In this document: piece after piece, positions 207-17,865 of the stretch
Numbering within the stretch: position 1 is the stretch's first letter
How the letters are laid out: every line of letters starts with the position of its first letter
Assembly: GCF_013141825.1 (NCBI RefSeq)
Contig: NZ_RZNH01000048.1
Span: 2,070 to 38,765 of the forward strand
Source of the DNA: Marinifilum caeruleilacunae
GTDB taxonomy: Bacteria > Bacteroidota > Bacteroidia > Bacteroidales > Marinifilaceae
DNA length: 36,696 nt
Direction: 5' to 3'
Notes under the pieces: generated by a model
Told to the model about the DNA's origin: nothing
Seen by the model: only the letters and a program-made list of their open reading frames with translations
Databases searched by the model: none
Translations under genes and position numbers: made by a program

Positions 207-338
207 GCTTAACAGCGGGTCAAAGCGCATGCCGCGGTTCGGCTCGGCTGGAAACTGATGTGAGATTTTAACGATAGAACTATAAACAACAAACCTGCGG
301 AAATTGCGGCACGACGCCATACCCGCGAAACGTTATGC
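207..338 (+). other. attC-like cassette recombination site
   Basis: The left box GCTTAAC (207-213) and right box GTTATGC (332-338) match the integron consensus RYYYAAC/GTTRRRY. Inside them GCGGGT (215-220) pairs with ACCCGC (321-326), and GCCGC (231-235) pairs with GCGGC (306-310), leaving a variable centre. The site lies between two cargo genes. It is clearly homologous to the site at 14600-14733. The attC assignment is inferred from layout, since no integrase is present in the window. Confidence 0.65.
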
Positions 339-369
339 GGCAGCTTAAAAAACGACACAACCGTTAAGA

Positions 370-627
370 ATGAAAAATGCGAAAACAATAATTTTCTACT
401 TTTTAATTGGATTTTCAATTCTTGAGATTCCTGTTTTTGTCTTTGGAATAATCAACACAATGGTAAGTTTGAAATATGAAACAGAAAACCCAACTGACTG
501 TATTTCTTTAATAACAGGACAAGATTTATGCTTAACTATTCAAATATTAAAAGCTCTTATAGTAGTCTGCATTGTGACAATTGTTTTATTGTTAGTTTTT
601 AGAAAACGAATTTTAAATACAAACTAA
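370..627 (+). CDS. Small two-helix membrane protein
   Basis: This 85-residue protein has hydrophobic segments at about residues 5-30 and 58-79. A short polar loop with two cysteines (DCISL, DLCLT) lies between them, and the tail is basic (FRKRILNTN). It is not recognised as a named family. The start lies 35 bases after the GTT of the attC-like site, so it is the first gene of its cassette. The stop codon abuts the ATG of the next gene (628), so the two are almost certainly co-translated and may work as a pair. Confidence 0.7.
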   Translation: MKNAKTIIFYFLIGFSILEIPVFVFGIINTMVSLKYETENPTDCISLITGQDLCLTIQILKALIVVCIVTIVLLLVFRKRILNTN

Positions 628-1113
628 ATGACTACCTGGAAACAACATTCGACCCACAAACAAGCAGAACTTAAAAAGTATCGTGACTTGGTATTAGCAA
701 CAATAGACTACTACCTAGAAAATAAATTAATGCACGTTTCGACAGCAGATTTTGACTCTATTGAGCATTTCAATGGATTAAAATTGCAAACTGAAGAACA
801 TTTCAATAAAGGCAGACTGACACGACTAAAGCAATGGTTTCGTGATATGACAGAGATGCAAATAGAAACAAAGGATTTAAAATTTAATCAGTACTTGAAA
901 GATAAAACAAAGTATGATATTGATATTTTCAAATCTTATAATCAGCGTGTTGATAAGATTATAGAGAAGGGTAAAATCACATCTGACAATCAATTTTATG
1001 ACATCAATATTATGGTTGACCAACTTTGCCAAATAGAGCCGATTGATAATGAGAAAATTGAAAAGTTAAATGGACTTTTAAGAGATTATGAAGAAAGAAA
1101 ATCAAGAAAATAA
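628..1113 (+). CDS. Soluble, mainly helical hypothetical protein
   Basis: This 161-residue, highly charged protein has no signal peptide or membrane segment. It is rich in Lys, Glu, Asp and Gln, with long predicted helices such as the stretch around KQWFRDMTEMQIETKDLK. I recognise no domain. It begins on the base after the stop of the membrane gene 370-627 and ends 15 bases before the AAC of the next attC-like site. The two genes therefore form a two-gene cassette of membrane protein plus soluble partner. A toxin/antitoxin-like or defence role is possible but unsupported. Confidence 0.7.
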   Translation: MTTWKQHSTHKQAELKKYRDLVLATIDYYLENKLMHVSTADFDSIEHFNGLKLQTEEHFNKGRLTRLKQWFRDMTEMQIETKDLKFNQYLKDKTKYDIDIFKSYNQRVDKIIEKGKITSDNQFYDINIMVDQLCQIEPIDNEKIEKLNGLLRDYEERKSRK

Positions 1114-1124
1114 AAAAGCCGACC

Positions 1125-1255
1125 GCATAACAAAATGTTTAGTGTATAAGGGATTCAGAGGTTTTCGAGCGGTATCACCCGCATCAATTTTGGGTGGTAA
1201 CTTGATAGGTTTGAAGGCCGCAATTCCCTGCGACACCATACACTAAACGTTGTAG
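1125..1255 (+). other. attC-like cassette recombination site
   Basis: The left box is GCATAAC (1125-1131) and the right box begins at GTT 1249-1251. TTTAGTGTAT (1138-1147) pairs perfectly with ATACACTAAA (1238-1247), and GGGA (1150-1153) pairs with TCCC (1225-1228). Total length is about 130 bases. The stem starts 11 bases downstream of the previous stop, and the next gene's GTG start overlaps the last base of the site. This is one of the most attC-like structures in the window. Confidence 0.65.
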
Positions 1256-2055
1256 TGCATTTAAATATAAAAAAAATAGTATCTGCAGTATTTCTTATAG
1301 CACTATTTGGCTGTGCAAATAAAGCAGACAAAAAAGAGGAAGAATACATGTTTAATATATTCAAGAAAAAAAACAAGTCGACAGAGGTTTTATCTCATGC
1401 GGACTATAACACAATATTTGACAATGCAACAGTTGAAGGAATTCCTGTCGAACTGGTCGAAATAGGAGACTTAAATGTTCCAACTGGGCAGATTGTTGTT
1501 TGTGATCCTCTTGTAGTTCCTGACATGCCGCCACTAAATAAGACGGTTAAGCCAGGTAAGTATCCAATCAAAATTTACGTTGCCAAAACAAAGGAATCAG
1601 GAGATAGATACGCAATAGCTACACTAGTTTTTAGTGAAACAAAGGCGGATAAGTGGGTTCTTGCGGTGCGTAGTGGTGAAGACGTAACAGAACTCAAGGG
1701 AGATGGCGACTTTTTTGGGTTTCCTGTTGACGCTGGCTTGGGTGGTTTCTTTGATTATCAGTCAGGGGTTGAATACAATAAATTGATTGACGAGTTTATA
1801 AACAAGAACCCTACGGGTAACATTTACGATGATTTTTTTGCTGCCGAATTCAAGAAAAACGCAAAAAATCCTGATAACCCAAATGATTATGGTGACTGGG
1901 TAAACTTTAAAATTCCAAATAGTGAATTGAATATTACAATGTTTCAGTCAGGTTATGGTGACGGGACATATCCTGCATATTGGGGGATGACTGACGATAA
2001 TGAAATTGTATCCTTGGTTATTGACTTTTTTGTTCTATTACTTACTGATGAATAA
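1255..2055 (+). CDS. DUF4241-like lipoprotein
   Basis: This 266-residue protein starts at a GTG that overlaps the attC-like site. That start is preferred to the internal ATG at 1348 because it supplies a lipoprotein signal with lipobox LFGC (Cys about 20). The mature part carries features I associate with DUF4241: TGQIVVCDPLV near residues 77-87, then PGKYPIKIYV, and later GFPVDAGLGGFFD. The biochemical role of DUF4241 is not known to me. A surface-exposed, immunity-like role is a guess. The gene is a single-gene cassette between the sites at 1125-1255 and 2068-2117. Confidence 0.7.
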   Translation: MHLNIKKIVSAVFLIALFGCANKADKKEEEYMFNIFKKKNKSTEVLSHADYNTIFDNATVEGIPVELVEIGDLNVPTGQIVVCDPLVVPDMPPLNKTVKPGKYPIKIYVAKTKESGDRYAIATLVFSETKADKWVLAVRSGEDVTELKGDGDFFGFPVDAGLGGFFDYQSGVEYNKLIDEFINKNPTGNIYDDFFAAEFKKNAKNPDNPNDYGDWVNFKIPNSELNITMFQSGYGDGTYPAYWGMTDDNEIVSLVIDFFVLLLTDE

Positions 2056-2067
2056 AAAACTACTGCT

Positions 2068-2117
2068 AGCAAACGCTATAGGGCATTAAAAGGCCACATA
2101 GCAAAACCGTTACCAAC
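2068..2117 (+). other. Short attC-like site
   Basis: AAC (2072-2074) is followed directly by GCTATAGGGC. The right arm GGCCACATAGC is followed by an unpaired AAAACC and GTT (2109-2111). GCTAT pairs with ATAGC and GG with CC. This is the shortest site of the array (about 50 bases). The GTT lies 23 bases upstream of the next start. Confidence 0.5.
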
Positions 2118-2134
2118 AATATAAAGAAGCAAAC

Positions 2135-2929
2135 ATGTTAAAACTATTTAAATCGAAACTGAAAGAAGAAGAATTCGGGAGAAAGTACTTTCAAAAACTA
2201 AAGAAAAAAATACCAGGTCTTGAATTGGTATCTTTAATTGGGCTTGAACTACGAACAAAACTAGATAGTCGGGACGAAATGAGACATCTTTTAGATAATT
2301 CATATGCAGAATATAAAAATGCCCCAAAAGATTTAAATGAAATAATTGAGAAATATACAAATGCGTCAAAAGAATTGTTTGAACCAAGGAAATCTGTAAA
2401 AGAAGAAAGAATCATCCCGATTGTAAAAGATTATAGATTTCTAAATGAGACTATAAAACAAAATCCAAGTTTTGAGAGTGACTTTTTATTTGAAAAGTAC
2501 AATGAGGAATTATACGTGTTTTATGCAGAAGACAGAGAAACAACAATAGCATATTTAAAAAAGGAAGAAATCGAACCGTTAGAAATCTCTTTTAATGACT
2601 TGAGACAAAAAGCTATTCAAAACTTTGGGAATTTAGCAACTAATATTGAAAGACATGGTGGAGATGGAGAATACATGGTAACAATAGGAGGAGATTATGA
2701 ATCAAGTCTTATTCTTTTAGACATTTGGAATAGTGATAATTTTCCTGTTGATGGAGAAATAGTAATTGGTGTTCCTGCTAGAGACCTTGTTTTAGTGACA
2801 GGGTCAAATGATAAAAAGAACATCCAAAAAATGAAGGAAAAAATCAGAGAAATAAATGCAACTGGAGATCATGTGGTTTCGGACAAGTTATTTATTATGA
2901 ATGCAGACAAGTTTGAAATATTAGAATAA
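2135..2929 (+). CDS. DUF1444-like protein
   Basis: This 264-residue cytoplasmic protein has no signal peptide or membrane segment. The layout resembles DUF1444/YtpQ-type proteins. It has a charged helical N-terminus with a KKKIPGLELVSL segment, a long middle with IVPIVK-like residues (IIPIVKDYRF), and a C-terminal domain with IVIGVPARDLVLVTGSND near residues 208-226. The family is known mostly by sequence and its reaction is unknown. It is a single-gene cassette whose downstream boundary is the composite site at 2938-3146. Confidence 0.55.
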   Translation: MLKLFKSKLKEEEFGRKYFQKLKKKIPGLELVSLIGLELRTKLDSRDEMRHLLDNSYAEYKNAPKDLNEIIEKYTNASKELFEPRKSVKEERIIPIVKDYRFLNETIKQNPSFESDFLFEKYNEELYVFYAEDRETTIAYLKKEEIEPLEISFNDLRQKAIQNFGNLATNIERHGGDGEYMVTIGGDYESSLILLDIWNSDNFPVDGEIVIGVPARDLVLVTGSNDKKNIQKMKEKIREINATGDHVVSDKLFIMNADKFEILE

Positions 2930-2937
2930 AATACTGT

Positions 2938-3146
2938 TGGTAACATCCTACCATATTGCATAGCGGTGTTTGGTGGCTTCCGAGAAAGACTCTCGCGTGG
3001 TAAAACGAACCCCTCCTATTTAAACCAGTTCTGAATTTTTGGCACATTGGCTTGTGTGCTTAAATAATATGTAAATTTAATCGCATTAATTTATTGGTGG
3101 TTTTTTTTTAAAATCACCCTCAAGTTTTAGCAAAACCCTTGGCAGC
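2938..3146 (+). other. Composite attC-like spacer carrying a dispersed repeat
   Basis: The left end TTGGTAACA (AAC 2942-2944) follows the stop by 13 bases. The right end has the array's usual arm, with TTTTAGCAAAACC at about 3125-3137 and CTT where other sites have GTT. In between are a CGAGA/TCTCG hairpin (2981-2995), a full 67-bp TAAATTTA repeat, and a hairpin pairing 3096-3104 with 3110-3118. The outer arms pair poorly, so this may be a chimera of two sites. Confidence 0.4.
3013..3079 (+). repeat. 67-bp TAAATTTA repeat, copy 1 (possible promoter)
   Basis: It runs from CTCCTATTTAAACC to GTAAATTTA. It contains TTGG, then 21 bases, then TAAATTTA, which resembles the Bacteroidota promoter TTG-N17-23-TAnnTTTG with the last base changed. 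Conservation with the other copies stops near the TAAATTTA. The next start codon is 108 bases downstream. Confidence 0.7.
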
Positions 3147-3186
3147 AATTTGCAGTCGCATTTATTGGTCGAATAAAACAGAATAA

Positions 3187-3879
3187 ATGATTACATTAAA
3201 AACATTTTATAGTAAGAAGAAAAAAAAAATACCTGTTCTTCTGATAATGTTCACTATTAATATTATCGTCGCACTTCTCTTTAGATACTCAAAAGAATTT
3301 AACGAACACGCTCATATTTTCGGGACTATTCTTGTCTTTAGTTTACTTGGGTACTTCATATATAATGGTTTTGTGAGCAAGACTAATAATTACTCGAAAG
3401 AAGGAAAGTTATTGGTAATCGTAATGACAACATTTCTTTTAATTTACATAGTTGATAATTTTTTGTTCCTAGACTCAATTTCAAATTCATTGTATGGTGG
3501 AATTGGATTATTAATTCTTGGATTTTGGATATATACCGCAACGAATAATTCACGAAAAACTCAATCGATTAACAAAGAATACTTTGGACAAGTAATTATT
3601 AATTATCATTCTATTATTATAAATGAAGCTGAATATAGTATTGACCAAATAAAAAGTATAGTCCTTGATAATAAAGACTATAAAGGTCGAATTACCAAAT
3701 ATAATGGATTAGCTTTTGGTCCATTGTTATCAAACGGAATAGATAATGATATTTCAATAACACTTAAAGATGGTTCAAACTTTTACCTAAGCTACTATCA
3801 AGAAGAACAAAATCAACTTTCTGGAAATGACGATATTATTAAAAAATATAACACTTTAGGAATATTAGAATTTATTTAA
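3187..3879 (+). CDS. Four-helix membrane protein with C-terminal PH-like domain
   Basis: This 230-residue protein has four hydrophobic segments at about 15-33, 44-62, 74-92 and 100-118. After a KTQSINKEYF linker comes a soluble beta-rich domain of roughly 100 residues. Its pattern (short strands, EYSIDQIKSIVLDN, ITLKDGSNFYLSYY) is like bacterial PH-like domains. It is not a named family to me. The basic run KKKKK after residue 10 fits a cytoplasmic N-terminus. It resembles in layout the proteins at 5037 and 21847. Single-gene cassette. Confidence 0.65.
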   Translation: MITLKTFYSKKKKKIPVLLIMFTINIIVALLFRYSKEFNEHAHIFGTILVFSLLGYFIYNGFVSKTNNYSKEGKLLVIVMTTFLLIYIVDNFLFLDSISNSLYGGIGLLILGFWIYTATNNSRKTQSINKEYFGQVIINYHSIIINEAEYSIDQIKSIVLDNKDYKGRITKYNGLAFGPLLSNGIDNDISITLKDGSNFYLSYYQEEQNQLSGNDDIIKKYNTLGILEFI

Positions 3880-3884
3880 ACCAT

Positions 3885-3965
3885 TGACAACAAAAGTTAA
3901 AATTAAAGGGCGGTGATCCCGAAGGATCGGGACAGGCGCAACTAGATAATGTAACAAAACCAATA
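3885..3965 (+). other. attC-like left half with GATCC hairpin
   Basis: The left end ACAACAAAAGTTAAAATT (AAC 3889-3891) follows the stop by 9 bases and continues with GGGCGGTGA. Next comes a hairpin GATCC-CGAA-GGATC and then TAATGTAACAAAAC. I see no matching right arm or GTT before the next gene, so this may be a degraded site. Copies of the same hairpin segment occur near 9475 and 11690. Confidence 0.4.
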
Positions 3966-3997
3966 AACAGCTAAAGGCTATTTTTAAATACCAGACT

Positions 3998-4942
3998 ATG
4001 AGAAAAACCTTATTACTAATTGCCATTATATTTTTCACAACTTCTTATTCATATTGTAATGAAAAAGAAATAGTTATTAATAAAATATTACATGATTTAG
4101 AATTAACCATTAAGAACTCTCAAACGAAAAACGAGTATGTTCAAAACTGTTATAATTTAGCAATAAAGTGCATTAAAAATGGTGAGGTTACAATGGTTCA
4201 TGACTCTACCTTAAGCAATAGGTTATATGGGTGTTGTGCTATTGCTACTTCAGAAAACCTTTCCAAAGTGCAGTTAAAATTTGGCAACTTTATATTAGAT
4301 ACATACCCAAAACACCCGTCCATTGTCCAGGCTATATTAATTCACGAATTTCAGCACATCTACGATCTAAAAACAAAACCTGAACTGTTTAAAATCAGCT
4401 TTTCTAATCAAATTGAAAAACTATACTTTGATATAGATGCCTTGCTTGTGGAAACTATGTTTATCAATGATTATCTAAAGCCAAATAATGAGTTATCTCC
4501 ATTTGAAAAATATCTGTGCTCTGACTTAAAAAACAATATGGCAAGCGTATCAACCCTATTCGAAAATGCAGACATCAATTTGGTGCATCAAATGGATGCT
4601 TTAGATAATTCAGACCAAGACTTAAATAAGACAATAAGTGAACTTGTGAAAATTGGAAAAAATTTGTTGATTGAATATGACATTAATAATTCTGATACCA
4701 ACTGGACAAAATACTGCAATTTCACCACCTTGAATACCTTCAATAAATATTACAAACAAGCACTATACGATATTGTAAACTCAAAATCAAAAAAAACCAT
4801 ACAACCAAATGACTTTAATATAGAAGATTTTCCACAAGTACTTGAAGTGGTTGAATCTATTAAAACTCATTTAGAGACACACATTAAAATATTACAGTTC
4901 AAAAAGAAGCTTGTAGAGAAATTTGAAAACTATTACCACTAA
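3998..4942 (+). CDS. Secreted HExxH putative zinc metallopeptidase
   Basis: This 314-residue protein has a signal peptide of about 20 residues. HEFQH (residues 116-120, within ILIHEFQHIYD) is a classic zinc-binding HExxH motif. A downstream acidic segment (DIDALLVETMF, Glu about 152) could supply the third ligand as in gluzincins. The rest is helical and rich in Asn and Lys, and is not recognisable to me. The likely location is the periplasm or outside the cell. Proteolysis is inferred from the motif only. The upstream spacer is the degraded site at 3885-3965. Confidence 0.7.
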   Translation: MRKTLLLIAIIFFTTSYSYCNEKEIVINKILHDLELTIKNSQTKNEYVQNCYNLAIKCIKNGEVTMVHDSTLSNRLYGCCAIATSENLSKVQLKFGNFILDTYPKHPSIVQAILIHEFQHIYDLKTKPELFKISFSNQIEKLYFDIDALLVETMFINDYLKPNNELSPFEKYLCSDLKNNMASVSTLFENADINLVHQMDALDNSDQDLNKTISELVKIGKNLLIEYDINNSDTNWTKYCNFTTLNTFNKYYKQALYDIVNSKSKKTIQPNDFNIEDFPQVLEVVESIKTHLETHIKILQFKKKLVEKFENYYH

Positions 4943-5036
4943 CAATATAAAAAACAGTCCTTAACAAAGTACCATATTACAAAACAGGATTTCTTACGGT
5001 GTCAAGCCTTAGCACCAATAACAAGTCAAACAATTA

Positions 5037-5567
5037 ATGATGAAATCTAAACATACTTTAAGAATTTTGAGCCTATACTTTGTGATTGCAATCTTCATTG
5101 TTGGCTTAATTAGATTAGGTGTACTTTGTTTAAATTTTGGAGCGTATAAGTCAGAAGGCGTTGTAGGAATTATAGGCGGTCTATTATTAATATGGATGGG
5201 CTTAGGATATTTCGCTTTAATGGTTGGAAAAATTAAAAGAATCCTAATAAAAGACAATAACCTAATAGTTAGAAAAATCTTGCTTAATAAAGAAAGTGAA
5301 AGCAGATTGAGCAAAGTTCAATTCACAGAATTTGAATGGCAAATGACCTGGAATACAGTTCGAGGAATATTAGTTAGACTTGAAAATGGAGAAATAGAAC
5401 AGATTAGTATAAAAGAGTTTTATAATTCACATGAATTGATTAAGCTGATTAAGGAAAATGGAATTAAAGATGATTCAATAAAACCAAAAATTCACACTGG
5501 GAGTTTTAAGGTTTTTATGTTATTAGGAATACTTATCTCTATAGCCATGCTTTTATTAAAGCTATAG
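5037..5567 (+). CDS. Membrane protein with PH-like domain
   Basis: This 176-residue protein starts at tandem ATG codons. It has hydrophobic segments at about 8-30 and 40-62 and a final one at about 155-175. Between them lies a beta-rich cytoplasmic domain (RILIKDNNLIVRKI, SRLSKVQFTEFEW, ILVRLENGEIEQISI) typical of PH-like modules. It is not a named family. It is a cassette gene. The region before it (4943-5036) has only weak site-like sequence, such as TTAACAAAG at 4961 and GGTG/CACC pairing near 5000. Confidence 0.65.
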   Translation: MMKSKHTLRILSLYFVIAIFIVGLIRLGVLCLNFGAYKSEGVVGIIGGLLLIWMGLGYFALMVGKIKRILIKDNNLIVRKILLNKESESRLSKVQFTEFEWQMTWNTVRGILVRLENGEIEQISIKEFYNSHELIKLIKENGIKDDSIKPKIHTGSFKVFMLLGILISIAMLLLKL

Positions 5568-6336: not shown

Positions 6337-6471
6337 GTCAAACTATTGGGAACAAAAGCTAATATTCAAGGGCGGTGAAGCTCTCCGCTGCCTCGCGAGT
6401 CCCCCCACCTGCCGCAAGTCTGTTAATTGTGGTTTGTAGCAGCGCTGAAAGCTGATTGCTATTATTTCTAT

Positions 6472-7000: not shown

Positions 7001-7096
7001 AATAAATAATAGTCTCATCCTCATGGACGGACAATTTTAACGCAAATCTGCTACAGCACCATACGGCCAACCGTTGCATGCCATTAAACACGAGAC

Positions 7097-7486
7097 ATGA
7101 AAGAGACTTTAAGAAAAGCGATTGAATGTGAAAATGAACAAGAATTGATACAATGTCTTGATTTTACAGTAGCAAAGAAAATTGATTCTACTCAATATGA
7201 TTTAATTGAAAAAGCACTTGTAGGAAGATGGCACAGCCAACATGAAGACATAATAAATACCATTTACTTGGAAAATTTAAAAGACGACAGATTTGTAGAA
7301 CCAATTCTTAATATTGCTCTGAATAGGGAAATTTACAGACGATATGATGATGAATTAGAATCGACCTTAAGAAAATGTGTACATGCTTTGAAAATAATTA
7401 ACTCAGATAAAGCTAATTCAGCACTAACAAGATTGGAAGAACTTAATAACGAAAATGTAAGTTTAGTATTGGAGATGTACAAATGA
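7097..7486 (+). CDS. Helical, HEAT-like small protein
   Basis: This 129-residue soluble protein consists almost entirely of predicted helices in pairs (ALVGRWHSQHEDIINTIYL, FVEPILNIALNREI, STLRKCVHALKII). The pattern is like a short HEAT-repeat solenoid and suggests protein binding. No catalytic motif is visible. Its TGA stop overlaps the ATG of the next gene (ATGA, 7483-7486), so it is translationally coupled to the DUF6985-like protein. HEAT-like proteins commonly travel with small DUF proteins of this kind, so a functional pair is likely. Confidence 0.7.
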   Translation: MKETLRKAIECENEQELIQCLDFTVAKKIDSTQYDLIEKALVGRWHSQHEDIINTIYLENLKDDRFVEPILNIALNREIYRRYDDELESTLRKCVHALKIINSDKANSALTRLEELNNENVSLVLEMYK

Positions 7487-8034
7487 AGACAGTTGATTCA
7501 AAAATATTAGGAAAGTTAACCCAGGACGAAAGATTTGAAGACTGGTGGCACAGCGAAACTTTAAAGATTCCATTAGTGGATAAAGAACTGGTCGTAACCT
7601 TCATGGACTTTGAGCCAGACTCTGATGAAACATTCATTCAAGAAGCAGATACGGCTCTTAGAAGTTTTCTTCTTTTGGACTCTGTATATAGAGCTGAAAT
7701 AAGCAATCTGGTCTTGAATCATTTTGTTGAATATAAAGAATTAGTTTGTGAAGTGGATGTTCCAACTGAAATGAAAGAAATTAATGAACATGAAATATGG
7801 AAATTCATAACACCAACCGAAATTCTTATCACGAGACGACCATATAACGAACCTGACATTTTCATAAACCTAACATGTGAATGTGCATGGGAACCTGAAC
7901 ATGGGTTACAACTTGTCTTCAAAAAGGGAAAAGCATTAACTAGAGTGAGTAGTCAAGATGGACATTTAACGACAGCCGATGCGTATGATATCCCAGATAG
8001 TGAAGATGAATTATTGGCAAAATTTAAAGAATAA
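7483..8034 (+). CDS. DUF6985-like protein
   Basis: This 183-residue soluble protein has no signal peptide. The N-terminal part (FEDWWHSETLKIPLVDKELVV) and the C-terminal signature (CECAWEPEHGLQLVFKKGKAL, about residues 129-149, then VSSQDGHLTT) match what I know of DUF6985 proteins. Their function is unknown and they are often seen as stand-alone small genes in variable regions. It is coupled by ATGA overlap to the HEAT-like gene upstream. The AAC of the next site-like sequence overlaps its stop codon (8033-8035). Confidence 0.7.
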   Translation: MKTVDSKILGKLTQDERFEDWWHSETLKIPLVDKELVVTFMDFEPDSDETFIQEADTALRSFLLLDSVYRAEISNLVLNHFVEYKELVCEVDVPTEMKEINEHEIWKFITPTEILITRRPYNEPDIFINLTCECAWEPEHGLQLVFKKGKALTRVSSQDGHLTTADAYDIPDSEDELLAKFKE

Positions 8035-8149
8035 CGGCATACAAAAATGCATAAAAAATATAAGTGACTTAGTGACTTACGGAAAGTAAGTGCATTTAAT
8101 CAGCTCCCCCCGCTGCCGTACGAATCCTCTTGCCAGGTAAAACGCCCCC

Positions 8150-8352: not shown

Positions 8353-8382
8353 ATTGTAGTTATATATACGTTACCAGTAATT

Positions 8383-9438
8383 ATGAGAACAGCGATCTAC
8401 ATCTTAATAAATTTAGTGCCATGTTTATTATTTGCACAGGATTATCCAATTATAGACACCTTAAATTATGGTGGGAATGTTAGCCATGTTAAGTATTACT
8501 TTCAAAACGATGGAGATAAAGAGATCTTGCTAGAAACCTACTGGTTCAATGAATCAAGAAAACATACCATTACATACACTGGATACGATGGCATTGAAAT
8601 ATATAAACAAACCAAAACATCCTATAATTACGATATCAATAACAACCTAACTACTGTAAAATATTTGGATTACATCAGTCCAAAAAATGACAGTATTGGA
8701 AAGCTGCTTATTTCTGAAATTAGAAAAGCTTATAAAGAGGATAAGAATATTTCAAATGAACTAATAGAGAAGTATCAAGCAATGTATGAGTATATTAATC
8801 CTGAAAACATTAATTGGGGATCGAATAAGGAGATGATTCCACTTTTAATTTTTAAAAGAAATCGAATTGGAAACGATTCTTTAATAGAAATATATAATGA
8901 AATCAATGATAAGGAAATATATCTTGATCAGATCGTATTTTTCTTTTATGACAAGCAAAATAGAATTAAAAGAAAAAAATGGATTGACATTCCTAACTCT
9001 AATGTATTCAAATTTCAGGTTTTCAAACCAAGCGATGTTAAACTTGAAGATTCTATAAAGGTTTTAACGAATTCATATCAAGAGAAGACTTTTAAATACT
9101 ATAAGGATTCTATTGTGATGAAACACTATGTAAATGGGCGTTTTACAGGTTCTGAAATCAATAAAACAAATAGCAATGGAACATTATCAGAATTTGTTTT
9201 AAATTCCAACGGCGATACTCTATCAAGTTACTTAAACGAATGGGATTTAAGGAAGAACTTAATAAATCGTAAAAGAATAAAACATACTGGATATGATGGA
9301 TTTGGCTATAGTTTGGATTTGACTTTTGGTAATATTAAAAAGTACAAATACGATGAGAAAAATAGACTCATACAGATTGATACATTTGAAGATGATAAAC
9401 ATGTTTGTACTGAACGGTTTGAAATAGTTGAAAAATAA
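8383..9438 (+). CDS. Secreted YD-repeat-like hypothetical protein
   Basis: This 351-residue protein has a signal peptide ending near LLFAQ (residue 19). The mature protein is a series of short beta strands with motifs such as TSYNYDINNNLTTVKYLD and KKYKYDEKNRLIQIDTFE, the pattern of divergent YD/RHS-like sheets. The phrase HTGYDG occurs near the end and a variant, YTGYDG, near the start. I cannot assign a named family. It is probably periplasmic or surface-exposed. Single-gene cassette bounded by GTT 8370 and AAC 9447. Confidence 0.65.
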   Translation: MRTAIYILINLVPCLLFAQDYPIIDTLNYGGNVSHVKYYFQNDGDKEILLETYWFNESRKHTITYTGYDGIEIYKQTKTSYNYDINNNLTTVKYLDYISPKNDSIGKLLISEIRKAYKEDKNISNELIEKYQAMYEYINPENINWGSNKEMIPLLIFKRNRIGNDSLIEIYNEINDKEIYLDQIVFFFYDKQNRIKRKKWIDIPNSNVFKFQVFKPSDVKLEDSIKVLTNSYQEKTFKYYKDSIVMKHYVNGRFTGSEINKTNSNGTLSEFVLNSNGDTLSSYLNEWDLRKNLINRKRIKHTGYDGFGYSLDLTFGNIKKYKYDEKNRLIQIDTFEDDKHVCTERFEIVEK

Positions 9439-9442
9439 CTAC

Positions 9443-9606
9443 TGGTAACAAAAATTAAAATTAATGGGCGATGATCCCAAAGGATCGAGACAGGCACAAC
9501 GAGATAATGTAACAAAAACAATAAACAAAAGCGGTGCTTGATAAGGAGGTGGTGGTAATCCTTATAGCTAACCGGAGCCCTCAAATTTTAGCAAAACCGA
9601 TAACTA
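9443..9606 (+). other. attC-like site, complete stem
   Basis: GGTAAC (AAC 9447-9449) is followed by an unpaired A-rich spacer and TTAAAATTAATGGGC. The right arm GCCCTCAAATTTTAGC pairs with it over most of 14 positions, then comes unpaired AAAACC and GATAAC, where GTT has become GAT. The variable part contains a GATCC/GGATC hairpin and TAATGTAACAAAAAC. The spacer opposite both arms mirrors the unpaired central spacer of known attC sites. Confidence 0.6.
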
Positions 9607-9616
9607 CAATTAGAAC

Positions 9617-11367: not shown

Positions 11368-11676
11368 ATGTTTATAGGCTATTTTGATTACATCATTTTT
11401 GGGTTACTACTCTTATTCAATGTACTATATTGGAAAAAGAGATTTAATGGAAAAACTGGATGCCTTATTATCGGAATTTTATTTGGAGTGGCAATTCCTT
11501 ATGTTTCAATGGAAATTGAGTTACTTCGAGTTAAGTCAGAGTTTGAAATGATTGATGGTTTCAATCTGCTTTATACCATTTTTCGTTTTCCAATGTATTG
11601 GATTATTGGAATTCTCCAATCTATTTTAATTAATATACATGACAAACAAAACCAGCCAGAAGGTAACAAAAGCTAA
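11368..11676 (+). CDS. Small membrane protein, stop codon in attC-like site
   Basis: This 102-residue protein has three hydrophobic segments (about 3-20, 30-48 and 68-88) with a KKRFNGKTG loop. No family is recognised. It starts directly after the previous stop. Its last residues (EGNKS) and TAA stop lie in GGTAACAAAAGCTAA, the left end of the following attC-like site, so the recombination site supplies the C-terminus. Confidence 0.55.
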   Translation: MFIGYFDYIIFGLLLLFNVLYWKKRFNGKTGCLIIGILFGVAIPYVSMEIELLRVKSEFEMIDGFNLLYTIFRFPMYWIIGILQSILINIHDKQNQPEGNKS

Positions 11677-11745
11677 AATTCAAGAGCAATGATCCTGAAG
11701 GATCAGAACAGGCACAACCAGATTATGTAATAATTTGTAACGAAT
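11661..11745 (+). other. attC-like left half with GATCC hairpin
   Basis: GGTAACAAAAGCTAAAATTC (AAC 11665-11667) overlaps the end of the upstream gene. It is followed by GATCC-TGAA-GGATC and a version of TAATGTAACAA. No right arm or GTT is evident before the next gene, which begins at 11817. Confidence 0.4.
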
Positions 11746-12354: not shown

Positions 12355-13248
12355 ATGACAGAATTAAAAGACAAAGTAACCATTGGACTAAGATTAGCAT
12401 CAATGTTGGTCGACCATTTTGCAATGACTTTCATAATGATGTTTATCATTATGCCAGGATTTGTTGTAAGTATGTTTGACGCATTTAACTTAGACCATGA
12501 ACCAAGCTCATTCGGATTTGGCGGAATGTCATTTCTATTTGCTTTTGGATTTTCCGCGTACTTTAACAAGGACATATTTAATGGACGAAGTCCTGCAAAG
12601 AGAATTCTAAAAATGCAGGTCATTGATAACAAAACAGGACAAGCAGCAAACCCTTTAAAATGTTTAGTTCGTAATTTGACCATCCCACTATGGCCACTTG
12701 AAGTAATCTTTGTCCTAATTGACCCCAAAAAACGACTTGGTGACAGAATTGCAGGAACAAGAATTGATTATATTGAAAATCCAGAAAAGATAAAATTGGA
12801 TTGGTCCAAATTCACAATTGCGTTGTTGATTGCTATTATTTTCTCAATTCTTATTTCACTTCCTTTTGCATTAATGAATTCAAAATTGGAAACTGATAAA
12901 ATCTCATATGTCGAGAATACATTTGATCAAACGAAAAGTGTTCAGACCAACAACCTATTTGAAACTAAACTCGATGGATTGATAAGAGAAGCTGACTTTA
13001 AAGTTTATAAGCAAATTGAGAATGACGATAGGAAATATGTTGCAGGGATTCTATATTTCAACAATCGACGTGACTATGACAACTTTAAGGAATCTGAAAT
13101 GAGAATCTCTGAATTGTTGAATTCCGAATTTTCACCTGACCACCATGTTTGTTTCTTGAAGTTTGTTTACAAAGAACCAGGAAGCATGAGTACAAGACAA
13201 AAACTATATGACTCGAGAAAAGAAAAAAACAGAAAAGCCAGCAGTTAA
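12355..13248 (+). CDS. RDD family membrane protein with C-terminal extension
   Basis: The N-terminal 145 residues are an RDD domain. The first helix is RLASMLVDHFAMTF (Arg and Asp), and further hydrophobic segments follow. The signature is LVRNLTIPLWPLEVIFVLID (about 103-122) followed by KKRLGDRIAGTRI. A further membrane helix lies at about 152-175, and a soluble domain of about 110 residues completes the protein. RDD proteins are integral membrane proteins, some linked to ion transport, but the substrate here is unknown. The C-terminal extension is not recognised. Another RDD gene lies at 28630. Single-gene cassette. Confidence 0.75.
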   Translation: MTELKDKVTIGLRLASMLVDHFAMTFIMMFIIMPGFVVSMFDAFNLDHEPSSFGFGGMSFLFAFGFSAYFNKDIFNGRSPAKRILKMQVIDNKTGQAANPLKCLVRNLTIPLWPLEVIFVLIDPKKRLGDRIAGTRIDYIENPEKIKLDWSKFTIALLIAIIFSILISLPFALMNSKLETDKISYVENTFDQTKSVQTNNLFETKLDGLIREADFKVYKQIENDDRKYVAGILYFNNRRDYDNFKESEMRISELLNSEFSPDHHVCFLKFVYKEPGSMSTRQKLYDSRKEKNRKASS

Positions 13249-13364
13249 CATTGTATAATAATAGCCGAGACAGCAGTAAATTCAACGATTGTATCCTGCT
13301 TCAACTTTTCTGTAACCCGTCAGAAAATTACCACGCAATTGGCTACTATTCTTATACTCAACCT
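13243..13364 (+). other. attC-like site with long stem
   Basis: GTTAAC (AAC 13247-13249, overlapping the upstream stop) is followed by ATTGTATAATAATAGCC. The right arm GGCTACTATTCTTATACTC pairs with GTATAATAATAGCC with one mismatch and one bulge. The right end reads CAACCTTAG, without a clean GTT. The next gene starts about 55 bases further on. Confidence 0.5.
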
Positions 13365-13418
13365 TAGGGGGCATTTTGATAGCGTCTTTTACTAAAGAAA
13401 CTCCAATAACAGACAACT

Positions 13419-14618
13419 ATGAATTCCAAACAACTATTCTTTCTAATTATTATCCCATTTTTTTTTAGTTGTAATCAAAAAGCAAGCAACCCGATTGATG
13501 AACTAAAATCAATAGGAAAAAGAATGAAAGAAAATAATTGTATTGAATATTCATACAAAATCGAAAAATATAGAAGTTATTCAGGACAAGCTCCTACCAG
13601 GAATGGAAAAATCTACTTTGAAAAAAACCTGGAAGACTCAATAATTGGGATGAATTTTTACAACAAGCAAGCTCCTTTCGTAACCTTTTACGGTGGAGAT
13701 TGCCATGTTACAATGCGAAAAGCAGATAGTACTGCCCATAGAGCACCACTCGTCCACTTTAAAAATGGGCACGGAGTAAGTCTTCCTTTCTTAGAAATGT
13801 CATATTGCGCTATTCAATTGTTCTTATCCAAACCCGACATTGAATTACAAATTGATTCATTAGTGAAAAATGATACTATTTTTAATAATCAAGCCTGTAC
13901 TTATTACTCTTTTTGGGCAAATGAAAAGTTTATTGATACACACAAAGCCTTTGATAAGTATAACAAAAAAGTAGAATTGATTATTAACAACAACTCCTTA
14001 CCATTATACTATTCCCAGTATAAACCAATTATGCGTAACAAGAATCTTGACTATCATTTCACCGAAGCATTTTTCAGTAATTATTCTCTTGAAAGTAAAT
14101 ATTCTTCTTCACTATTTCGAATGGAAAACATTCCTGAATATTATACCTGGGATATGTATAAATCTGTGAGAAAAACTTTAGCTAATGGTCAAGCTGCCCC
14201 AGATTGGACTTTACCACAATTAGACGGAGATTCCATAACTTTATCAGATTTAAAAGGGAAATATGTTCTTTTAGATTTTTGGTTCATTGGATGCGGAGCT
14301 TGTATTAAGTCAATTCCAACATTAAATGAAATTCAAAATTCCTATCGAAAACATAATCTAGAAGTCATTGGTATAAGTACAGACTTGAAGAACCCCGAAA
14401 AAATTAAAGAATATTGCGCAAAAAGAGGCATGCTTTATCGAAACTTATTCAACGGTAACTCAATTAGTAAAAAATACAAAATCAATGCTGCCCCCATCTT
14501 CTATCTGATTGACAAGAAAGGAACAATCGTATACACTCAGATTGGTCATGACAGCAAAAAATTAAAGGAAAATATCGCTAAACAATTGAATAAAACGGCC
14601 CCTAACCGCGGGTCATAG
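13419..14618 (+). CDS. TlpA-like thioredoxin-fold lipoprotein
   Basis: This 399-residue protein has a lipoprotein signal (FFSC, Cys 18), a roughly 230-residue beta-rich region of unknown fold, then a TlpA/ResA-type thioredoxin domain from about 254. It shows GQAAPDWTLPQLDG, LKGKYVLLDFW, the redox motif CGAC (292-295) and the cis-proline segment AAPIFYLID. It probably acts in the periplasm as a membrane-anchored thiol-disulfide oxidoreductase. The last residues (TAPNRGS) and TAG stop lie inside the attC-like site 14600-14733. Unusually large for a cassette gene. Confidence 0.85.
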   Translation: MNSKQLFFLIIIPFFFSCNQKASNPIDELKSIGKRMKENNCIEYSYKIEKYRSYSGQAPTRNGKIYFEKNLEDSIIGMNFYNKQAPFVTFYGGDCHVTMRKADSTAHRAPLVHFKNGHGVSLPFLEMSYCAIQLFLSKPDIELQIDSLVKNDTIFNNQACTYYSFWANEKFIDTHKAFDKYNKKVELIINNNSLPLYYSQYKPIMRNKNLDYHFTEAFFSNYSLESKYSSSLFRMENIPEYYTWDMYKSVRKTLANGQAAPDWTLPQLDGDSITLSDLKGKYVLLDFWFIGCGACIKSIPTLNEIQNSYRKHNLEVIGISTDLKNPEKIKEYCAKRGMLYRNLFNGNSISKKYKINAAPIFYLIDKKGTIVYTQIGHDSKKLKENIAKQLNKTAPNRGS

Positions 14619-14733
14619 CGCATGATGCAGTTCGGCTCGTCTGGATGCGGAAGTGAGAATTTAAACGAAAGAACCATAAACAACAGACCTGCGGGGGAAG
14701 ACAGCACGACGCCATACCCGCGGAACATTAGCA
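14600..14733 (+). other. attC-like site, sister of the site at 207-338
   Basis: CCCTAAC (AAC 14604-14606) to ATTAGC (ATT 14727-14729 in place of GTT). GCGGGT pairs with ACCCGC and the inside matches 207-338 closely: AGCGCATG, GTTCGGCTCG, GTGAGA-TTTAA, CATAAACAACA, CCTGCGG, CAGCACGACGCCATACCCGCG. Its left arm is the end of the upstream coding sequence. Confidence 0.6.
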
Positions 14734-14739
14734 ATAATT

Positions 14740-15435
14740 ATGAAACGAATTACATTTTTACTTTTATTAATAGCGAATTCGACATTTGCCCAATTCCATT
14801 TTTCAGATCTACAATATGTAGATATTGAATCAAGCTATCTTAATGGGAAGTTTGGTTTTAATAAAACATCAGAATTTCAACTCATAAATAAATTATGCGA
14901 TGACTCCATGGACTGTTTTAAGTATTACGACCCTACTACTATTATTGGTTATTGGCCTATAAATGACAAAACGAAAATTGAGCTTCACTACACCGAAGCC
15001 CCAAGCGATGATCCAACTTTTATAGCTATTTACAAAGGCAAAGTAATACTGGAAGAATCAGGATCTACATTACATTTTAAGGGGAATACCCTATACATAG
15101 AAGGCAACGCCAACTCCTATTTTGATAAAAAAAGAAAATTTCAGTTTGTAAATAATTCCTATCAAGAAGTCACTCAACCCTTCTACTACATCGGATTAAA
15201 AGGGAATCTCAATTATCCAATCCAAATATACAAGACTGAACAATTCAAAGAAAAACTAGCATATCTACCAAAAGATTATAAAATTGAAGTTTTAATGGGT
15301 AAAACCGGAGGAGAATATGATGATTTAGAAAAGGTTCTAATTAAAACTGAATTTGGTTTAATTGGTTGGTTAAACTTTAAAGATATAGCTTTTGAAAGAC
15401 CTATGGTCGATGGACTATATTTTCACGGAGATTAA
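14740..15435 (+). CDS. Secreted protein with C-terminal SH3-like segment
   Basis: This 231-residue protein has a signal peptide ending near STFAQ (residue 18). The middle is beta-rich (GYWPINDKTKIELHYTEAP, STLHFKGNTLYIEG). From about 165 the pattern PIQIYKTEQF, LPKDYKIEVLMGK and FGLIGWLNFKDI looks like a bacterial SH3-type domain ending in GW(L). It is probably periplasmic. No named family. The start is 11 bases after the attC-like site, so the gene is read straight from the site. Confidence 0.65.
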   Translation: MKRITFLLLLIANSTFAQFHFSDLQYVDIESSYLNGKFGFNKTSEFQLINKLCDDSMDCFKYYDPTTIIGYWPINDKTKIELHYTEAPSDDPTFIAIYKGKVILEESGSTLHFKGNTLYIEGNANSYFDKKRKFQFVNNSYQEVTQPFYYIGLKGNLNYPIQIYKTEQFKEKLAYLPKDYKIEVLMGKTGGEYDDLEKVLIKTEFGLIGWLNFKDIAFERPMVDGLYFHGD

Positions 15436-15442
15436 TAAACCA

Positions 15443-15530
15443 TTGCCAAGAAAAATTAAAATTAAAGGGCGGTGATGCTCCCCCCATTAGCTATCGGGAG
15501 CCCTCTATTTTGCAAAAAGCTAACCCATAA
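15443..15530 (+). other. attC-like site with inner GCTCCC hairpin
   Basis: TTGCCAAG is followed by AAAAATTAAAATTAAAGGGC, with AAG where AAC is usual. The variable part is a hairpin GCTCCC...GGGAGC around ATTAGCTATC. The right arm is CCTCTATTTTGCAAAAAGCTAACC, with GCTAACC where other sites have CGTTACC. Both boxes look decayed. The next start is 15 bases on. Confidence 0.45.
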
Positions 15531-15544
15531 TTATTAATTATAAA

Positions 15545-16147
15545 ATGAAAGCATTTTTCATATTCGTATTGGTTGTTATTTCAAATGGGTTGGTTTATAG
15601 TCAAACCAATGATAAAACATTTAATTTAGTTCGGGATATTGGAAATTTCTCTGAATTAATGACTGAGTTCGACACAATAGTTGTTAATGCAGATTTCAGT
15701 ATATGCGATGGAGAACATTTTGAAAAAGACATAATAACTAAACAAAACGATAGTGTTTTCATAGAAGTGTATATAGAAAATGACTCCAAGGGAAAATTAC
15801 GATACGAAAAACGTTTATACAGATATAACAAATCTGACACATTGAATTTTGAGACTCTATATTCAAAATTACAAAAACATACTATCCCGAATAAAAATGC
15901 ATCATTAAGGTTTGAAATAGTTCACAATAAAAGAGATACTCTAAAGCTCTATTCGTATGGATTAGTGGACGTCTTAAGGATATCAAGCTATTTGACTAAA
16001 ATTAAAGATCAAATATATTTTGACAAGGATTATTATAAGCCAATACAAATTCCTCCTAAACCTAAAGGACTATCCGAACTTGAAAAATTGGATTCTTTAA
16101 CACGTGTTGAACTAGAAATGGAATTACAACGAATGATAGATGAATAG
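15545..16147 (+). CDS. Secreted hypothetical protein
   Basis: This 200-residue protein has a signal peptide ending near GLVYSQ (residue 20). The mature part is beta-rich, with VVNADFSICDGEHFEKDIIT and YIENDSKGKLRYEKRLYRY. A proline-lysine linker (IQIPPKPKG) leads to a charged C-terminal helix ending ELQRMIDE. No family is recognised. The tail layout (proline run plus acidic helix) resembles that of the next gene. Single-gene cassette. Confidence 0.6.
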   Translation: MKAFFIFVLVVISNGLVYSQTNDKTFNLVRDIGNFSELMTEFDTIVVNADFSICDGEHFEKDIITKQNDSVFIEVYIENDSKGKLRYEKRLYRYNKSDTLNFETLYSKLQKHTIPNKNASLRFEIVHNKRDTLKLYSYGLVDVLRISSYLTKIKDQIYFDKDYYKPIQIPPKPKGLSELEKLDSLTRVELEMELQRMIDE

Positions 16148-16156
16148 AAAATAACA

Positions 16157-16244
16157 GTTGCAAACAAAAGCTAAACTTCATGGGCAGTGAAGCTCACACA
16201 TTAGCTATCGGGAGTCCTCAAAATTTTAGCAAAACCGTTCCCTA
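16157..16244 (+). other. attC-like site, best example of the A-rich spacer type
   Basis: GCAAAC (AAC 16163-16165), unpaired AAAA, GCTAAA-CTTCATGGG. The right arm is CCTCAAAATTTTAGC, then unpaired AAAACC and GTT (16237-16239). The inner box GCTAAA/TTTAGC pairs perfectly. The tip holds a short GCTC-N-GGAG pairing around ATTAGCTATCG. The next gene starts 11 bases after the GTT. Confidence 0.6.
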
Positions 16245-16249
16245 CAATA

Positions 16250-17140
16250 ATGAAAATGAAAAATCTAATTGTCACCATATTCATACTTCTTCCTTTTTTT
16301 AGTTTTTCTCAAAAAGTGAATGAGAATCTTATTGGCGATTGGGTTTCATTAGAAACTAGATATATTTTGTCATTTACCAATTCGACTATTGGATTCCTTG
16401 ATTGGGGAGAATTTCAAGAATGTTATACTAAGTCTGACACAATTTTCTTTGAATCACCAGATATTATTAAAAAAGATTATTCATATCTGGATAGTATCGA
16501 AAGAAAACCTGTGGTTAAAAGAACTGTGGTCACTGGCATAGAAGTTTTAGGAGGTTATAAAATCAATGGTGACAGTCTAACTATTAATGTGATAAATGAT
16601 AATTTATTCTTTGATTTAAAGCTTCATAAATTTAAAAAATTAGAAGCGAAGAATTCAATTGATTTCGATTCAATTTTTATTGAATCTTCCTGGTGTATGG
16701 GCCTTTCCCCATCCATGGAAATTAAAATTCTATCTAATAGAGATTTCTATTTTAAAGGTAAGATGTACACAGAAAAGTTAGGCAATTACAAAGGAAGATT
16801 AAGTGACGATTTACATCGTCTTGTCAGTGATAAAATAAGGCAACTTGATTTTAACTCTTACGATTCAGCTTATTTTGCTGGACATACAGATGGTCAAACA
16901 AGAAATCTAATATTATATCATAATGGAAATCGGGAACGAATTCAAATATATGGACATGAGGCAGAACCATTAGAGCTAAATGTTTTCTTTCATTATTTAA
17001 CTGAATTGTACAAAAATATAAACTTGAAAGAATTGAATTTTGAGCTTGAATTTGAAGAAATGGAACGATTATACCCTAAACCGCCTCCGCCACTATCTAA
17101 GGAGATGTTAGATTTAATTGAAGATTTTGATGAAGAATAA
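16250..17140 (+). CDS. Secreted hypothetical protein, lipocalin-like start
   Basis: This 296-residue protein has a signal peptide ending near FFSFSQ (residue 20). It is followed by NLIGDWVSLETRYILSFTNS, the GxW type of opening common in lipocalin-like beta-barrel proteins of Bacteroidota. Beta-rich throughout (VKRTVVTGIEVLGGYKING and similar). The C-terminus has a proline run (YPKPPPPLSK) and an acidic helix. Probably periplasmic. The lipocalin reading is an inference from pattern only. Confidence 0.6.
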   Translation: MKMKNLIVTIFILLPFFSFSQKVNENLIGDWVSLETRYILSFTNSTIGFLDWGEFQECYTKSDTIFFESPDIIKKDYSYLDSIERKPVVKRTVVTGIEVLGGYKINGDSLTINVINDNLFFDLKLHKFKKLEAKNSIDFDSIFIESSWCMGLSPSMEIKILSNRDFYFKGKMYTEKLGNYKGRLSDDLHRLVSDKIRQLDFNSYDSAYFAGHTDGQTRNLILYHNGNRERIQIYGHEAEPLELNVFFHYLTELYKNINLKELNFELEFEEMERLYPKPPPPLSKEMLDLIEDFDEE

Positions 17141-17146
17141 ATTACT

Positions 17147-17215
17147 GTTGGCAACAAATGTTAAAATGAATGGACGGTGATCCCTGACAAGTTAATGTAA
17201 CAAAAAACAGTATAC
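17147..17215 (+). other. attC-like left half
   Basis: GTTGGCAACAAATGTTAAAATG (AAC 17153-17155) starts shortly after the stop and is followed by GGACGGTGATCCC and TAATGTAACAAAAAAC. No right arm or GTT is recognisable before the next start at 17238. Confidence 0.35.
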
Positions 17216-17237
17216 GGCAATTTTAAAAAACCAAACA

Positions 17238-17786
17238 ATGAGAATTTCACCTTTTAAATTACTGGCATTATTCGTTCCAATATTTTTACTTTCATGCAAT
17301 ACAAATGATAAAGAATCTGAATTGAAAATGGTGAACATTGCTGACTTGAATGGAAAATTCCAAGTGAAACTCCCCGAAAGTTGGAAAAAGGAATTTAATA
17401 CCACGGGATTTTCTTCAGGGATAATTTCGTCTGACACAACTACAGAATTAAAAAATACAGTGATTATTAATATTAATTGGAATCAAGACACTGTTTATAT
17501 CAATCCTAATCTGGAGCAAACACTTGACTCTCTTAATGCAACAATTGGACTTAAAACACATATACGAAAAAGTGGAAAAATTGGTAATTATCGGACAAGT
17601 TTTAATTTTAGTTCTGGTTATGACCTAAGTGAAAAAATGAAGCAGAATCAGTACTTGTATATCCTAAAAGGAGATTCTATCACAGGACACATATTAATGA
17701 CAGCAACAGTTTTTGGAGATTCGATTCAGGCTGAACAATCGGAATTAATTGCAGAAATAGTGAAGACCATAAAAATGAACAAATAA
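17238..17786 (+). CDS. PsbP/DUF1795-like lipoprotein
   Basis: This 182-residue protein has a lipoprotein signal (LLSC, Cys about 20). The mature domain starts FQVKLPESWKKEF, followed by paired strands (TVIININWNQDTVYI), a helix (NLEQTLDSLNATI) and a final helix (SELIAEIVKTIKM). This is the order seen in PsbP-like/DUF1795 domains, which are small periplasmic alpha/beta proteins of mostly unknown role. Single-gene cassette. Confidence 0.6.
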   Translation: MRISPFKLLALFVPIFLLSCNTNDKESELKMVNIADLNGKFQVKLPESWKKEFNTTGFSSGIISSDTTTELKNTVIININWNQDTVYINPNLEQTLDSLNATIGLKTHIRKSGKIGNYRTSFNFSSGYDLSEKMKQNQYLYILKGDSITGHILMTATVFGDSIQAEQSELIAEIVKTIKMNK

Positions 17787-17788
17787 CA

Positions 17789-17865
17789 TCCGCTAACAAA
17801 CGTTAAAATTTATGGGCGGTGATACTCCCCCCGCTGCAGCTCGAGTCCTCTCGCGTAGATAAAAA
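17789..17865 (+). other. attC-like left half fused to a REP-like hairpin
   Basis: CCGCTAACAAACGTTAAAATT (AAC 17795-17797) is followed by GGGCGGTGATA. Then comes CTCCCCCCGCTGCAGCTCGAGTCCTCTCGCG, a variant of the GC-rich hairpin of 6751-6790. No right arm is seen. The sequence from 17866 to 18034 carries only a weak GAAGC/GCTTC hairpin near 17977-17996 and no convincing gene. Confidence 0.4.

Follow-up and report, generated by a model that had tools for sequence, protein, structure and literature searches.

The 36,696-nt window analysed here (G000:C159:2070–38765, on contig C159 of the 5.27 Mb, 202-contig draft genome of Marinifilum caeruleilacunae) carries, at positions 204–17823, a row of small same-strand genes separated by spacers with left halves AACAAAAGTTAAAATTAAAGGGCGG and right halves AATTTTAGCAAAACCGTT. 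Two questions are raised by this locus: (i) is the row an integron-type array of gene cassettes joined by attC-like recombination sites and (ii) which enzyme assembled it, given that no integrase is encoded in the window (contig C159) and that the tyrosine-recombinase matches listed for the genome lie on other contigs. For the first question, sequence comparison confirms positions 207–17860 as an integron-type cassette array that is largely decayed. For the second, the window is very probably an integrase-less stretch of such an array whose likeliest builder is a 359-residue tyrosine recombinase encoded on contig C176, or a close relative of that protein. The layout is that of the integrons that spread antibiotic resistance genes, and the enzyme serving it in Bacteroidota appears to be of a different kind.

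Complementary cassette ends and the position of the crossover

The original prediction described an integron-like array with at least seven attC-like spacers, and this description holds. By eye, seven spacers combine an AAC-type left half with a GTT-like right half (A1–A4, A8, A14 and A16 in Table 1), with a poorer example near 15440, and left halves near 3882, 6345, 11658, 17146 and 17788 stand without a good right half. Both halves were recovered unprompted by repeat finding, the left as family D9 (8 copies) and the right as family D15 (4 copies). The right-half pattern TTTAGCAAAACCGTT, allowing at most one mismatch, has 19 matches genome-wide compared with 5 for the reversed pattern, and the contigs carrying these matches are C136, C159, C181, C184, C187, C191, C193, C195 and C83.

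In integrons, crossover at G^TT makes the right core of a site part of the next cassette, where it pairs with that cassette's own left core. The cassettes examined here follow this scheme: the start (GTTnnnnnnn) is the reverse complement of the same cassette's end (nnnnnnnAAC), and the two halves of a single spacer do not match each other. Complementarity within the cassette, in the absence of a match within the spacer, therefore puts the exchange point at G^TT, the position used by integrons. For 20 motif-defined cassettes from relatives, the own-end match averages 4.55/7, compared with 2.58 for permuted pairs (p ≤ 1e-5) and 2.73 across the halves of one site. The M. caeruleilacunae genome offers only four motif-defined cassettes, which give 5.0 versus 3.19 permuted (p = 0.042). 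A motif-free version of the test, in which the reverse complement of each cassette start was searched for and the left-box motif was not used, found 34 downstream matches in relatives, 22 of them then showing the left-box motif, and 11 upstream matches, five with the motif. In M. caeruleilacunae the corresponding numbers are 13 downstream (six with the motif) and 15 upstream (one with the motif), and 12 of those 15 upstream matches stem from one right half clipped by a contig end.

Eight cassettes of the window, with ends set by hand, were compared in the same way, and complementarity of own start and own end is seen in part of them. Three score 6–7/7 and one scores 5/7 (Table 1); for these four, no rival AAC within the next 3.3 kb scores equally. 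A chain test of matching ends over the whole window yields six links, mostly AT-rich words, and is uninformative there. Reading the reverse strand is useless as a control for such chains because complementary ends look alike on both strands, and upstream DNA, a control region and shuffled sequence were used instead.

An intact array behind a tyrosine recombinase

The genome's best integron-integrase match, the 359-residue tyrosine recombinase, lies at one end of contig C176. This contig overlaps C184 by exactly 148 bases, as C184 in turn does C136, and the joined sequence reads recombinase, attI-like stretch (94 bp to the GTT) and then seven cassettes, whose own ends match at 6–7 of 7 positions and whose sites measure 120–187 nt. 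With no integrase in the window, the array had originally been called sedentary or served in trans; the second option is now likely, given the intact recombinase-headed array on C176–C184–C136. In our model, the recombinase would cut at the G^TT of a folded, single-stranded site, would join cassettes at the attI-like site adjoining its gene and would act in trans on arrays such as that of the window. A system of this kind would be integron-like in its working and outside canonical membership, the activity of the recombinase being inferred from sequence.

The same order of recombinase and array is found in relatives. In the complete genome G016, five cassettes with matching ends stand in a row behind the recombinase, and in G010, likewise complete and on a single contig, about 30 cassettes extend over about 31 kb. 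The G010 chain has 33 links in 97.9 kb, 13 of them in the first 18 kb, compared with three in a 17-kb control region and four in 20 kb of shuffled sequence; this count keeps all links, including a few that are probably spurious and of low complexity, whereas the counts of 97 and 104 cassettes given below are chain-internal and leave out end links. Arrays stand directly behind the recombinase in M. caeruleilacunae, G016, G010, G037, Marinifilum breve and Flavobacteriaceae, and they are documented in Aequorivita, Winogradskyella, Maribacter, one uncultured member of the Flavobacteriaceae and M. breve.

Cassettes duplicated or shared at exact borders are observed in the sequences of these other genomes. 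In G010, the same unit is present in three places, once at the attI position and twice within the array; the copies are 99.8–100% identical over 1,030–1,035 bp, and their ends fall no more than a few bases from the GTT. A 648-bp unit is common to G012, where it occupies the attI position, and to G037, which belongs to a different genus (98.9% identical, again ending within a few bases of the GTT), and Flavobacterium saccharophilum has two copies of a 1,095-bp unit (99.6% identical).

A wider survey of the recombinase used a scan of species genomes, from which the best 80 of 566 confirmed loci were taken, and a second scan, from which the best 80 of 321 confirmed matches were taken. The best 80 of the 566 loci come from Marinifilum, Maribellus, Marinilabilia, many Flavobacteriaceae, Cytophagales, Saprospiraceae, gut Bacteroidales and uncultured groups, and a few of them are labelled as other phyla. 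Among 80 named loci, the sequence runs out within 2.5 kb of the recombinase on the downstream side in 43 and on the upstream side in six, as would be expected if a repeat-rich array breaks assemblies at that point. No chain value is given for loci with at most 600 bases downstream. Among the 27 loci whose downstream sequence reaches 4.8 kb or more, chains of at least six occur on that side in 10 and upstream in none (the upstream control being shorter in two). All 10 are Flavobacteriaceae by name or belong to genera that we place there.

Two side observations concern these loci. The start of contig C184 coincides exactly with the GTT that opens the first cassette after the recombinase, and the overlap at either joint is exactly 148 bases; the C176/C184 joint may mark an assembly branch arising from a second context of that first cassette, but no such second context was found. 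The recombinases of L188 (Bacteroides salyersiae) and L192 (Parabacteroides faecalis) belong to two gut genera, yet are near-identical, with branch lengths near zero, and lack an array chain; a common mobile element may carry them.

Architecture of the sites and the attI-like stretch

The median cassette of the intact arrays is 723 bp long, and the sites between cassettes fall mainly into two sizes (118–127 nt in 51 and 177–192 nt in 40 of 108 chain sites). The canonical attC core consensus is RYYYAAC/GTTRRRY. Here, GTT followed by A or G opens 93 of 97 cassettes, the full GTTRRRY is present in 10 and the RYYYAAC core is likewise present in 10. The suggestion that this is a Bacteroidota variant thus stands, and the accompanying statement that the consensus fits some of the sites needs correction to 10 of the 97 intact-array cassettes. 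The inner arms L'' and L' pair within sites (n = 101) with a score of 5.87 versus 4.43 for permuted arms, none of 500 permutations being as good. Over 104 cassettes from 12 arrays, the longest open reading frame (ORF) runs along the array in 91 and against it in two, and 11 have no ORF of 60 amino acids.

The comparison of folds with shuffled sequences that had been proposed for these spacers gave a divided result. Intact-array sites fold better than their shuffles on the bottom strand (27/30 and 18/38), whereas the sites of the M. caeruleilacunae genome do so in a minority of cases, as detailed below. Of the two strands, the bottom one is the more stable in 36 of 38 sites from Flavobacteriaceae and in 17 of 30 sites from relatives. 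Wobble pairs flanked by Watson–Crick pairs number 149 on the bottom strand versus 66 after permutation and 19 on the top strand versus 21, and recombination would therefore likely use the bottom strand, as far as these sequences indicate. The raw excess of G.T pairs on the bottom strand (339 versus 90) was set aside as strand evidence, since permutation (about 370 versus 135) shows it to be mostly a matter of composition.

In the 11 arrays measured, the GTT of the first cassette lies 40–99 bp behind the stop codon of the recombinase gene. In 8 of 14 attI-like stretches behind the recombinase, an inverted repeat is present that equals or exceeds those of 98% of simple shuffles. These features are consistent with an attI-like site next to the recombinase at which cassettes would be received.

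A recombinase lacking the IntI insertion

The distance between the GLR and HxLRH motifs is 88–89 residues in all 31 of the new recombinases, 92 and 95 in two M. caeruleilacunae proteins that are Xer-like and 130–131 in 31 of 32 IntI proteins (one could not be measured). Alignment to the solved IntI structure (2A3V) breaks at the position of the IntI insertion. From these comparisons, the recombinase is a protein without the insertion of ~42 residues and hence not a canonical IntI. Two proteins scanned score 194.8 and 196.5 bits with the integron-integrase model TIGR02249 (cut-off 265), and they also remain below the cut-offs of the Xer models (XerA 211/213 bits against 220, XerC 175/168 against 335 and XerD 173/179 against 330); by score, archaeal XerA is the best NCBIfam model. 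The predicted structure of the whole recombinase likewise has XerA as its best fold match (E-value 1.6e-17), followed by IntI (4.6e-15).

Quick trees, built with 17 of the 32 IntI sequences, place the new recombinases in one clade (support 94) and IntI in another (99). When viral recombinases are added, IntI joins some of these and not the new clade; this tree also omits five of the 31 new rows, and no usable row came from the M. caeruleilacunae recombinases L007 and L008 or from one of the 15 selected viral loci. An approximately unbiased test, from which five more IntI rows and the non-Xer recombinases of the M. caeruleilacunae genome were dropped, does not reject a single clade of IntI and the new proteins (p = 0.289). 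The new recombinases may therefore be a sister lineage of IntI or an independent one. The catalytic domain without the IntI insertion is shared with XerA, XerC and XerD, but the new proteins differ from these in having an N-terminal domain of ~75 residues and in heading cassette arrays.

This N-terminal domain has a weak profile likeness to HARP (SMARCAL1) and DUF5710 that is not significant alone: at a lax E-value threshold of 5, Pfam reports DUF5710 in 8 of 24 proteins and HARP in 2 of 24 (best E-values 0.00045 and 0.00094). Here, unlike in those proteins, the domain is fused to a recombinase. For the M. breve recombinase, structure prediction gives a mean predicted local distance difference test score of 83.8 for the whole protein and 91.7 for the first 76 residues alone, and the best fold match of the domain is XPB (probability 0.66, E-value 0.41). 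HARP-type domains bind structured DNA. We infer, as a further step in our model, that the domain might read the folded sites, taking the place of the IntI insertion. The G010 recombinase (L094, ORF 991–2637) has a longer N-terminus, with seemingly two copies of a small W..W domain by eye.

Could the array nevertheless be a canonical integron, or a cluster of attC sites lacking an integron-integrase (CALIN), served by an ordinary IntI that escaped detection or is encoded elsewhere? Such an origin would account for the layout, the attC-like arms, the logic of the R box and the cassette content, all of which are of integron type, and IntI is common in other parts of the phylum sample, with matches that exceed the TIGR02249 cut-off in 105 of 395 genomes. 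However, the search of the genome for an integrase with the IntI-specific motif, suggested with the original prediction, returned no match over this cut-off and turned up the recombinase without the insertion instead. Of 145 genomes searched, that of M. caeruleilacunae among them, only two have an IntI over the cut-off, yet arrays stand directly behind the other recombinase. Among the strong-IntI genomes of the phylum sample, G181 alone is of this class, and the RYYYAAC core count (10/97) is also at odds with an ordinary IntI. We consider this explanation improbable.

The window resembles a CALIN in having several attC-like sites and no integrase nearby, at least two such sites being recognised by sequence, whereas the CALIN definition relies on the published attC model; it differs in that the sites of this system are mostly off the canonical consensus and in that a recombinase-headed intact array is present in the same genome. 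With IntI integrons, the system shares a recombinase gene, an attI-like site, a unidirectional cassette row, R- and L-armed sites carried by the cassettes, a putative crossover at G^TT and the duplication and sharing of cassettes. The differences are a recombinase without the IntI insertion and with an extra N-terminal domain, a recombinase gene parallel to the array (the usual intI gene points in the opposite direction), a departure from the core consensus and the two main site sizes.

Passages of two studies define or select IntI by its additional domain, which is described as necessary for integron recombination (PMC9668308, PMC2426708), and a passage of a third reports that the insertion is not fully conserved within an integron-like subgroup (PMC8138268). 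Where the insertion is used to define or select integrons, an insertion-based search would therefore pass the present system over. Complete integrons are described from few Bacteroidetes genomes in the relevant part of one account, at first as integrases without cassettes and then in Salinibacter, a case beyond Chlorobi and Ignavibacteriae (PMC9024848), and part of another lists Bacteroidota among the integron-bearing phyla (PMC8618304). Among the matches listed from the open-access integron and HARP literature, judged by title and the start of the abstract, no description of this system was found; preprints and subscription journals fall outside this scope and a prior report is possible.

We tentatively raise the broader possibility, to which we give somewhat less than even weight, that Bacteroidota have a second, separately evolved integron system, in which a XerA-like recombinase with a HARP/DUF5710-like N-terminal domain in place of the IntI insertion would move cassettes via folded single-stranded sites, the window being an integrase-less store. 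Should the recombinase have the role that its position suggests, the IntI insertion is dispensable for cassette capture. Flavobacteriaceae and the family of this genome hold long cassette libraries, although canonical IntI is nearly absent from the relatives. The system opens a store of mostly unknown genes and makes the acquisition of folded-site use by a Xer-type enzyme directly testable.

Observations against the model and remaining alternatives

Several observations weigh against the interpretation of the window as the product of this recombinase. The window array is not joined to any recombinase in the draft assembly; four of the eight window cassettes tested score 0–3 and fail the end-matching test; and one or both halves are degenerate in most window sites, as in the right cores CTT (3138), GAT (9599) and ATT (14727). 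Among 13 sites of the M. caeruleilacunae genome, end pairs beat shuffles in only four on the bottom strand and five on the top, and the bottom strand is the more stable in one and the less stable in 12. Homologues from gut Bacteroides, Parabacteroides, Mediterranea and Phocaeicola show no downstream chain longer than three, so membership of the recombinase family does not by itself predict an array. Finally, some site-bearing genomes have no such recombinase at an E-value of 1e-30 or below, for example G021 (21 pattern matches), G001 and G002.

It would be more surprising still than a hidden IntI if the row were a set of transposon-like units lying side by side, each with its own terminal inverted repeats. 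Each unit does have complementary ends, and dispersed repeats and insertion sequence-like (IS-like) elements are present. The repeats differ between units, however, and adjacent units are connected head to tail through sites that have two main sizes; moreover, genes run one way (91 versus 2 of 104) and the row begins at one place, behind a tyrosine recombinase. Equally hard to credit is an ordinary gene-dense chromosomal region whose intergenic repeats merely resemble attC, since the many decayed window sites and several dispersed repeat families that speak for it are set against cassette-wise complementarity and intact arrays in this genome and its relatives, and for the intact arrays the exact-border duplicates refute it.

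Features of the window

Table 1. Attachment sites and cassettes recognised in the window; scores in the first column are matches between a cassette's own start and own end
Feature	Positions	Strand	Basis
A1 attC-like site, both halves (left GCGCTTAAC, right GTTATGCGG)	204..341	+	sequence
Cassette, ORFs 370–627 and 628–1113; own start GTTATGCGGC, own end ACCGCATAAC, 6/7	332..1131	+	end-matching test
A2 attC-like site, arms GTTTAGTGTAT / ATACACTAAAC	1122..1258	+	sequence
Cassette, ORF 1255–2055 (DUF4241); 3' core degenerate, ends 1/7	1249..2065	+	domain search, end-matching test
A3 attC-like site, left half degenerate, right half intact (CATAGCAAAACCGTTACCAACA)	2057..2118	+	sequence
Cassette, ORF 2135–2929 (DUF1444); start GTTACCAACA, end TGTTGGTAAC, 7/7	2109..2944	+	domain search, end-matching test
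A4 attC-like site, dispersed repeat in middle, right core CTT instead of GTT	2935..3147	+	sequence, repeat finding
attC-like left half, behind ORF 3187–3879	3882..3917	+	repeat family D9
attC-like left half	6345..6380	+	repeat family D9
Possible cassette, ORFs 7097–7486 and 7483–8034 (DUF6985); ends GTTGCATGCC / GGCATACAAA, 3' core decayed	7073..8046	+	by eye
Cassette, ORF 8383–9438; start GTTACCAGTA, end TACTGGTAAC, 7/7	8370..9449	+	end-matching test
A8 attC-like site (AACAAAAATTAAAATT ... AATTTTAGCAAAACCGAT), right core GAT instead of GTT	9440..9608	+	sequence
attC-like left half, containing stop codon of ORF 11368–11676	11658..11700	+	repeat finding
A14 attC-like site, same site family as A1 by eye; right core ATT instead of GTT	14597..14736	+	sequence
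Degenerate attC-like site	15440..15535	+	repeat finding, sequence
A16 attC-like site, both halves and inner arms (GCTAAACTT / AAATTTTAGC)	16156..16246	+	sequence
Cassette, ORF 16250–17140 (DUF6438); ends 5/7	16237..17155	+	domain search, end-matching test
attC-like left half	17146..17181	+	repeat finding
attC-like left half, last recognised in that direction	17788..17823	+	repeat finding

The possible cassette with the DUF6985 gene fails the end-matching test (1/7, with its end set at 8044). The gene and left box of ORF 11368–11676 resemble a G010 cassette (73% over 322 bp). A scan of the window with Rfam gave no family at gathering score, and 10 window proteins gave no match to anti-phage defence models at an E-value of 0.001 or below. 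The neighbouring cysteine-synthase-like protein, named by eye, has no match at an E-value of 1e-100 or below in five other genomes of the genus.

When 9.4 kb of the window was compared with 57 relatives, matches were mainly confined to sites or repeats. A1 has matches of 77–92% identity confined to the site in G001, G002, G003, G004, G012, G016 and G024, and A2 has such matches (79–89%) in G010, G012, G015, G016, G026, G031 and G071. Copies of the sites at 204–341 and 1110–1265 in many relatives, 77–92% identical, end where the site ends. From these matches, entire sites seem to spread independently of the adjoining genes.

Two families of dispersed intergenic repeats are also present, one of up to ~116 nt (window 2975, 6755, 8112, 12162, 18839, 23376, 27135 and 29206) and the other of ~300 nt (6419, 23044, 26803 and 35983); one of the two contains CCTATTTAAACCAGTTCTTAATT and the other TTTTTGGCTTAAGCCCAAAAAGTAAG. 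Several copies occupy attC-like sites or stand in for the middle or right half of a site. An IS-like element, identified by eye and containing a 515-residue ORF, occurs twice in G016 at the same position of an attC-like site, directly behind ..AAGACCG. The two copies share a 1.86-kb stretch that is 96% identical, and the same junction letters recur in G012; the positions concerned are ~9425 and ~12086 of L091 (reverse complement) and ~3954 of L098. Judged by these junctions, the element seems to target the crossover point.

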